From Acidobacteriota bacterium (lineage in GTDB: Bacteria > Acidobacteriota > Terriglobia > Versatilivoradales > Versatilivoraceae), in NCBI GenBank assembly GCA_028875575.1, contig JAPPDF010000003.1:1-64000 (forward strand): DNA of 64,000 nucleotides, in the 5' to 3' direction. Of the stretch, positions 1 through 51,141 are shown piece by piece (position 1 is the first letter of the stretch; each line of letters begins with the position of its first letter). Both the position numbers and the translations under genes were made by a program. The notes under the pieces were generated by a model. The model was not told the origin of the DNA, did no database searches, and worked only from the letters and a program-made list of their open reading frames with translations.

Positions 1-191
1 GCGTGCTCGGGAGCGAAGAGCGTAGCGGTCACTACGGTCGAGCGAGCATGGATGGGCTGAGGGGAAAAGGACAAGACAGGGCATGCCCAGCGCCGTGTGT
101 CACCGCAAGGCATCCCAATCGGGGGAACGAGTTCCAGAAAATAAATGGCCTTTCATCATGACTCCGGCGACCTGGTGAGAAATGCGGGTTA
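1..191. repeat. Right part of a TA-flanked MITE-like repeat (family A, copy 1)
   Basis: This stretch matches 23897-24090 with gaps: both contain GAAGAGCGTAGCGGTCAC, then GGCATGCCCAGCGCCGT, and end in CTGGTGAGAAATGCGGG followed within one base by TA. The right terminal repeat is at 172-189 (17 of 18 bases equal to the other copy) and the flanking TA is at 190-191. The left end lies outside the window. The element ends five bases before the start codon of the agmatine deiminase gene. The homology is seen directly; the transposon origin is inferred. Confidence 0.75.
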
Positions 192-23789: not shown

Positions 23790-23840
23790 CCCCCCGGACT
23801 TCTCTTTTCGGCCGGCAGGGCCAAACCGGCATTCACCGGT

Positions 23841-24090
23841 TAGCCCGCATTTCTCACCAGTGGGCAAGATCATGGCGCAGGACTTTTCCCTTCAGCGCGT
23901 GCTCGCGACCGAAGAGCGTAGCGGTCACTACGGTCGAGGGAGCCTGTGCGCGCTGAAGGGAAAAAGACCAGCCAAGGCATGCCCAGCGCCGTCTGTTATC
24001 CGCAAGCCCTTTACATGGAGCCAATCACTGTACTGAAAGATACACTACCCTTCGTCATGCCATCAGCGGCCTGGTGAGAAATGCGGGCTA
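23841..24090. repeat. Complete TA-flanked MITE-like element (family A, copy 2)
   Basis: A 250-bp unit including both flanking TA pairs (23841-23842 and 24089-24090). The 18-bp terminal repeats GCCCGCATTTCTCACCAG (23843-23860) and its exact complement (24071-24088) are perfect. The inside has no credible gene but has short inner inverted repeats around 23907-23940. Another copy forms the start of this window. TA duplication and short perfect ends are what IS630/Tc1-mariner-type transposases produce; no such transposase is in the window, so the mobiliser is inferred. It fills the gap between the receiver gene and the lipoprotein gene. Confidence 0.85.
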
Positions 24091-24092
24091 GA

Positions 24093-25689: not shown

Positions 25690-25777
25690 TAGCAGATTTT
25701 CAGGCGAAAAAACAGAGAGGCGCACTGGCTGCCAAAGACATCATGTACAATTCGAGCCCGGTGAGAAATACGGGCTA
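25690..25777. repeat. Possible degenerate family A remnant
   Basis: CCGGTGAGAAATACGGGCTA at 25758-25777 matches the family A right end plus TA with two differences. A weaker TAGCAGATTTTCA at 25690 could be the left end. The unit would be only 88 bp and sits between fabI and the divergent gene, where the promoters should lie. Confidence 0.4.
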
Positions 25778-25829
25778 AAATCGGTAGCGGCACGCCGTGA
25801 CCGAATCCAAGAGGGGAGAAGGAGTTACT

Positions 25830-26153
25830 ATGGCTTACACGTTCGGCGATCTGAGACACAAGACCGTGGCCCAGCTTCGCCAGATTGCCGGTGAAATCGA
25901 GCACGACGCCGTCAAGGGCTATACCCAGATGACCAAGGAGCCCTTGTTGAAGGCGATCTGTGACGCCCTGGGCGTCGATATGCACGAGCACCACGATGTG
26001 GTGGGCATCGACAAGCGAGCCATCAAGCTGGAAATCAAGGAACTCAAGAAGCGGCGGGACCAGGCCTTGGAGGCCAAGGATCGTGCGGGGCTGAAGTCGA
26101 TTCGCCGCCAGATCCACGCATTGAAGAGAAAGATCCATCGGGCAACTGTTTGA
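25830..26153 (+). CDS. Small Rho_N/SAP-like domain protein
   Basis: A 107-aa basic protein. The start at 25830 is set by AAGGAG seven bases upstream; the frame is open back to 25797. The N-terminal half (KTVAQLRQIAGEI, then GYTQMTKEPLLKAICDALGV) fits the Rho_N/SAP-type helix-extended-loop-helix that binds nucleic acid. The C-terminal half is a charged helix (IKLEIKELKKRRDQALEAKD). Together this suggests a small RNA- or DNA-binding protein. It is found singly, divergent from fabI and convergent with a radical SAM gene. Confidence 0.72.
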   Translation: MAYTFGDLRHKTVAQLRQIAGEIEHDAVKGYTQMTKEPLLKAICDALGVDMHEHHDVVGIDKRAIKLEIKELKKRRDQALEAKDRAGLKSIRRQIHALKRKIHRATV

Positions 26154-26186
26154 CCCGCATGGCGCAACGGGGCGACGCATTGCCCG

Positions 26187-27257
26187 CTATGCTGTTCGGT
26201 CGCGAGTGCCCGAGGGAGAGTAGGGCCCTGCGCCACCATCATGCCCCGCGGTGAGGAGTGCAGGGTCAATCCGCGTGTCGTCGGTCTGGGGTGACCGCCA
26301 ATTGTCCAGCACGCCGACTTGCTGGACGCAGGAGACCGTGCAGTAAGGGGCGCAGGTCTTGCGAAGGCTGAATTCCCGGCGGATGTGTTCTCGGGTGTAG
26401 TCCTGCAGCGGAATGGCAGGGTAGCCCCGTTGCTGCGAGCAGTAGTGAACCAGGCCGTCCTCGCAGACGTAGAGGTACCGGCCGCCGGCTCGGCAGCGCC
26501 AATGGTTGGGTTTCCCCAGAGAGATGTTCTCCTGAAATCTGTTGAAGCGCGCAAAGGACTTCTTGCCAAGCTTCTGGATCTCACGATAGACGGACCGTTC
26601 TCTCTCGTTCAGGGCTCGCAGCTGGCCGTCCCCATCGTGAATGATGCCCAGGGTGCTGGAGAAGCCCAGGGAGACAGCCCGGCGGGCCACCTGCAAGGCG
26701 TCCTCGGGGAAGCGGATGCCGGAACCGATGACCGAGTTGATGTTGACGGCGAAGTCGGCGTACTCGGCCAGCATCACCAGCTTCCGGTCCAGAACCTTGA
26801 GGCTCTTCTTGGAGACATCGTCCGGGTTGACGTTGTCGATGCTTATCTGCAGATGCTCCAGGCCCGCCTGGTTGAGCTGTTGGATGCGCTTGACACTGAG
26901 CAGATAACCGTTGGTTATCAGCCCCGCCATCATTTTTCGCAGCCGTATCCGCTTCAATACGGCGTCCAGTTCGGGGTGCAACATCGGTTCCCCTCCGCTG
27001 ATCGTGATCACGGTGGTGCCGAGGCGGGCCAAATGGTCGACCCGCCGCAGCATTTCCTCGATGGGCACCGGCGCCGAGACCTTGTCGAACTCATTGCAGT
27101 AGGTACAGGAAAGGTTGCAGCGGCGGATGGGGATGAGGTGGGCCAGCACCGGATGCCTGGTTGAAAGCAGGGCTTTGGCAACCATGCGCCATTCCCTGAC
27201 GCGTCGATGCGCCGCCAGCAGTGTCCTGCGAAATCCTGTTCCGTTAACAGTATTCAT
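26187..27257 (-). CDS. Radical SAM protein with C-terminal cysteine-rich domain
   Basis: A 356-aa radical SAM enzyme. The [4Fe-4S] motif CNLSCTYC has C47, C51 and C54, the SAM-binding GGEP loop is in [10 protein letters not shown], and the region VISIDN-like [11 protein letters not shown] is typical. The C-terminal quarter has seven more cysteines ([28 protein letters not shown]), like SPASM/twitch auxiliary-cluster domains that act on peptides or anaerobic sulfatases. No precursor peptide or sulfatase is adjacent, so the substrate is unknown. Confidence 0.85.
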
Positions 27258-50760: not shown

Positions 50761-51129
50761 ATGCCCTTTATCGACATCAAGGAGCTTCCGGCCCTCGAGC
50801 TTCAGCCCGGAGTCCGCCTCCGAACCCCCTACGGCAAAAATCTCATGCTCTCCTACCTGGAGATCGAGGAAGGCGCCACGGTACCTCTGCACAACCATCC
50901 CCACGAGCAGGGGGGGATCGTGCTGGAGGGCAAGTTGAAGATGACGATCGGAAACCAGACCCGGGTCTGCGAGGCGGGGTCGATGTTCCTGGTTCCCCCC
51001 AACGTCTACCACAAGGCCGTGGCCGTGGGGGGACCTGTGCGGGCCTTGGACATTTTCAGTCCGGTCCGGGAGGACTACGCCAAGCTGTCCAATACCTATG
51101 TCGGCGACGTCGACGCCGAGACCGGCTAG
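50761..51129 (+). CDS. Cupin-domain protein (second)
   Basis: A 122-aa cupin. Motif 1 is PLHNHPHEQGGIVLEGKLKM and motif 2 is VPPNVYHKAV, with the metal set H, H, E/Q, H. AAGGAG precedes the ATG at a suitable distance. It opens a run with the two exported TIM-barrel-like proteins. The stop codon and the next bases (TAGGCCGCATTTCTC at 51127-51141) match the family A element end at 14 of 15 positions. Confidence 0.85.
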   Translation: MPFIDIKELPALELQPGVRLRTPYGKNLMLSYLEIEEGATVPLHNHPHEQGGIVLEGKLKMTIGNQTRVCEAGSMFLVPPNVYHKAVAVGGPVRALDIFSPVREDYAKLSNTYVGDVDAETG

Positions 51130-51141
51130 GCCGCATTTCTC
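51127..51141. repeat. Solo family A-like end
   Basis: TAGGCCGCATTTCTC matches the TA plus terminal sequence of family A (TAGCCCGCATTTCTC) except for one base. It covers the stop codon of the cupin gene. No partner end is nearby, so it could be a relic or chance. Confidence 0.3.

Follow-up and report, generated by a model that had tools for sequence, protein, structure and literature searches.

Elements of the IS1380 family (NF033539/PF13701), such as IS1247, ISPme1 and ISEcp1, are about 1.7 kb long and carry a transposase gene; for IS1247, direct repeats of 5 bp have been reported (PMC3281130). Bacterial MITEs, of which the Correia elements and MITEAba12 are examples, are short, non-coding and bounded by terminal inverted repeats (TIRs), reach a high copy number, lie mostly between genes and form a stable hairpin. 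No MITE assigned to IS1380 was found in the literature searched, and the word IS1380 is absent from a 2024 review of prokaryotic MITEs. Recent studies of piggyBac transposons take IS1380 transposases as outgroup (PMC10813416).

The family described here was detected in the first 64,000 nucleotides of contig JAPPDF010000003.1, from an Acidobacteriota genome (hereafter the window). It shares all the above traits of bacterial MITEs, and differs from them in general by its parent family, IS1380. Its TIRs, of the CCCGC...CTCACC type, recur in IS1380 remnants of the genus and in an intact IS1380 of the class, whereas it lacks a transposase gene, measures 246 bp, has an interior unrelated to that of the insertion sequences, and is bordered by direct repeats of 4 bp rather than 5. 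As for piggyBac, TTAA targets occur among its sites, but CTAG is commoner and piggyBac is eukaryotic, so the resemblance concerns the target only. We consider it very probable that the element is an IS1380-type MITE, moved in trans by an IS1380 transposase. The IS1380 parentage is well supported; the family itself is of an ordinary kind, and apparently undescribed. This corrects the transposase family named in a preliminary description, which had proposed an IS630/mariner-type enzyme, and extends the known MITEs by a family linked to IS1380.

The element and related sequences in the window

The non-coding element (23843-24088) is 246 bp long and is bounded by perfect 18-bp TIRs. With the adjoining TA included, its arms (23841-23860 and 24071-24090) pair at all 20 positions, and the 18-mer end has 4 matches in the window, compared to 0.15 expected; the perfect inverted ends of the preliminary description are thus real. 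The predicted fold is very stable on both strands (z of -7.1 on one and -6.2 on the other). A role of the inner hairpin as a transcription terminator is not favoured, as each strand of its stem, on reading, starts with T and ends with A runs. Coordinates are given in Table 1.

Table 1. Position of the element, its parts and its relatives in the window
Feature	Position	Strand	Remarks
MITE core	23844..24087	.	CCCGC...GCGGG, 244 bp; 246 bp with adjoining G and C
Left TIR, GCCCGCATTTCTCACCAG	23843..23860	+	inverted-repeat and 18-mer match
Right TIR, perfect reverse complement of left	24071..24088	-	inverted-repeat and 18-mer match
Left 4-bp flank, TTAG	23840..23843	.	
Right 4-bp flank, CTAG	24088..24091	.	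one base unlike left flank
Inner palindrome	23884..23964	.	arms 23884-23899 and 23949-23964
Partial diverged second copy	1..188	.	81% identity; consensus 55-244; contig end cuts off remainder
Probable solo or decayed TIR	25757..25775	-	2 mismatches in 18; flank CTAA
Decayed third copy	26154..26265	.	flanks TTGA / TCAA

A second copy had been reported at the window start. It is indeed present, but only in part; its right TIR (172-189) has 1 mismatch, and the copy stops 7 bp short of the ATG at 196. Such repeats break MAG assemblies, and the contig of the window begins inside this copy. Two further sites had been said to resemble the ends: that at 25758-25777 is retained as a probable solo or decayed end, while that at 51127-51141 is not, its match covering only 11-12 bases at chance level (E of 6.4). 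The third copy had been missed. Its left flank, TTGA, contains the TGA stop (26151-26153) of ORF 25797-26153, and at the orthologous place the sister chromosome G001 harbours a well-preserved element on the same stop codon (TTAA).

Copies in the genome and the genus

Exact CCCGCATTTCTCACC ends were searched in the whole genome (4.49 Mb, 101 contigs), as the preliminary description had suggested. This yielded 57+52 = 109 matches, and none with the reversed control. Blastn detected at least 42 element matches, with identities of 72-100%, a minimum reached with 40 of the 123 candidates scored. The copies are dispersed and have unrelated flanks. Among 30 of them the median pairwise identity is 91%, while certain pairs from distinct loci do not differ at all (100% identity), which indicates recent spread.

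The family is present in 7 of the 7 genomes of the genus, that of the window and six sister species, each sister genome containing between 6 and 99 exact ends; such matches are few in 54 genomes from elsewhere in the class. The named relatives of the window, 95-98% identical in the enoyl-ACP reductase, are the MAGs SB0661_bin_38, RHO1_bin_34, jk18xAbins.46 and OX638355.1, all Acidobacteriota, and all presumably from sponges. In G001, shorter derivatives of 128-162 bp (L222, L224, L225, L227-L231) have lost the inner hairpin partly or entirely; six copies are of the 128/130-bp type. The derivatives arose through microhomology deletions, their junctions falling at short direct repeats, GGGCATG for instance.

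Target sites and empty loci

Copies occupy 4-bp sites, CTAG or TTAA (YTAR). The commonest flank pairs among 111 elements of six genomes are CTAG/CTAG (30) and TTAA/TTAA (11), and the 4-mer identity of the two flanks exceeds that of all 20,000 shuffles. At the locus of a TTAA/TTAA-flanked copy of the window's genome (L035), the sequence of two relatives runs on without interruption through one TTAA, and that of one relative through one TTGA. Another copy (L032) has CTGG/CTGG as flanks, and one relative empty at this locus is shorter by 4 bp. A third (L057), flanked by CCAG/CTAG, corresponds to a single CTAG or TTAG in empty relatives. One 5-bp case was found, GTCAG/GTCAG (L216 of G001). The comparison with flanks in relatives left out L037, L052, part of L039 and others. 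These insert-free loci, together with the many genomic copies, bear out the earlier proposal of a non-autonomous element mobilised by a transposase.

In a palindromic target, the empty site alone cannot separate a duplication of TA from one of 4 bp. We decide for 4 bp and against TA because of the CTGG/CTGG and GTCAG/GTCAG pairs, and because the base adjoining the TIR tracks the target, being A/T where the site is TTAA and G/C where it is CTAG. The A/T terminal type is scattered over the family and does not follow descent (permutation p 0.63), meaning that this base comes from the target and is not a fixed element end, and ruling out a TA model with a fixed terminal base. The flanking TA noted earlier is therefore literally there, but is better described as the centre of a 4-bp repeat, TTAG on the left and CTAG on the right.

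Of the 71 unique ends with enough flank, 17 have a flanking TAG or TAA that terminates an ORF of 130 codons or more. Among 89 YTAR sites taken as control, 8-9 do so, with the threshold set at 130 or 100 codons. This suggests an excess of insertions at stop codons, relative to a small control; selection against inserts inside genes is enough to explain such placement. Inserts persist in intergenic positions, in many cases right on a TAG or TAA stop codon, which the duplication restores. With several dozen copies, seven sister genomes and insert-free loci, the family is a natural data set on which targets IS1380 selects (YTAR), and on how insertions survive at stop codons.

The copy at 23843-24088 has no clean empty site in the relatives G003, G006 and G005. 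In G003 and G006 the element is absent, and ∼90 bp of other sequence lie between the same flanks. The closest relative, G005, has this ∼90-bp sequence plus the last ∼40 bases of the element, with the same right junction. The simplest reading would be an insertion before the G000/G005 split, followed by a deletion in G005. The neighbouring DNA would have been lost separately in G000. Recombination between two copies may have caused this loss and, if so, would also explain the TTAG versus CTAG flanks seen here.

The parent transposase

Three IS1380 elements share the TIRs of the MITE. In the window's own genome, L061 (712 bp) is a remnant whose ends, GCCGCAATTCTCACCAG and CCCGCATGTCTCACCAG, carry 1-2 mismatches and surround an NF033539-like fragment. 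L072, a remnant of 756 bp in the sister genome G004, ends in CCCGCATTTCTCACCAG and CCCGCATTTTTCACCAG, one exact and the other with 1 mismatch, and is flanked by CTAG/CTAA. L064, from a different family of this class, is an intact IS1380 of 1729 bp with a 482-aa frame (381 bits to NF033539, the model that both remnants also match); its TIRs, CCCGGATATCTCACCA and CCCGGATTTCTCACCA, are near-identical to those of the MITE, and its direct repeats are CTAG/CTAG. We infer that an IS1380 transposase made the insertions. The TIRs CCCGCATTTCTCACCAG are those of IS1380 elements once active in the genus, whose transposase would have moved the gene-less element in trans into YTAR sites, duplicating 4 bp. 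Only ∼17 bp of TIR and no interior are common to the MITE and the IS1380 remnants, so that simple deletion within the latter does not account for the former.

PF13701 (IS1380) matches were found in the own genome and in relatives. Against this parentage, none of the genomes of the genus yielded a full-length open IS1380 gene; the matches there are fragments or interrupted frames, though MAGs may lose repeats. The sister G001, whose chromosome is complete, has 46 exact ends and not one PF13701 match. The family may thus be inactive now, or its parent lost or unassembled. On many contigs of a genome of the same family (G007), a weak PF13701 match of 124 aa recurs in near-identical form ∼25 times, often 8 bases from contig ends; these matches correspond to a repeated IS1380-like gene fragment.

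Mobilisation by an IS630/Tc1-mariner transposase with TA duplication, as first proposed, would agree with the TA in both flanks, present at this locus and in many copies, and with the same inner 2-mer on both sides in 56 of 111 elements. However, the window's genome contains no gene with the DDE_3 domain (PF13358) of these enzymes, genes bounded by these TIRs being IS1380, and neither the CTGG and GTCAG repeats nor the dependence of the TIR-adjoining base on the target is in keeping with it; we regard it as very unlikely. Just as improbable in our view is a regulatory palindrome or a structured RNA gene with merely incidental repetition. The stability of the fold is what such a gene would show, but any long inverted repeat folds, whichever strand is taken; Rfam gave no match, and the occurrence of copies at different loci within unrelated flanks, TIRs matching those of IS1380, and insert-free loci in relatives all speak against it.

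A palindromic repeat of REP/BIME type, moved by a RAYT (tyrosine) transposase, would likewise be intergenic and present in many copies, but a length of 246 bp, 18-bp TIRs and target duplications make it hardly credible; RAYT elements are not known to produce target duplications.

Unequal flanks

One feature of the flanks speaks against the IS1380 reading: direct repeats of 4-5 bp are seen, though the 4-bp flanks are non-identical in 71 of 113 elements, including copies internally identical to others. In 66 of these 71 copies, the base abutting one end is the complement of that abutting the other, compared to 74% if the two were independent (P about 5e-5). Conformity to YTAR drops outward from the element over the first three positions, and inner flank bases change far less than outer ones. 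Uniform point mutation fits poorly (12 of 26 observed, compared to at most 6.2 expected, P about 0.006). Misassembly is ruled out for L045, L055, L057 and L059, both flanks of which are contiguous in relatives.

Gene conversion between copies, or overhang carry-over, could be behind the unequal flanks; on a carry-over of donor flanks, the target sites of relatives are too poorly conserved to decide. A variant in which IS1380-type transposition proceeds without faithful 4-bp duplication, each end keeping part of a donor- or target-strand overhang through a piggyBac-like hairpin/overhang chemistry, seems to us unlikely. If true, the flanks of one insertion would differ while the bases touching the element stay complementary. 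A recurrent combination was also noticed in six copies (L034, L037, L039, L044, L046 and L050), one end being flanked by CGAG, in the direction of the element, and the other by CTAG (CTAAG in L044).
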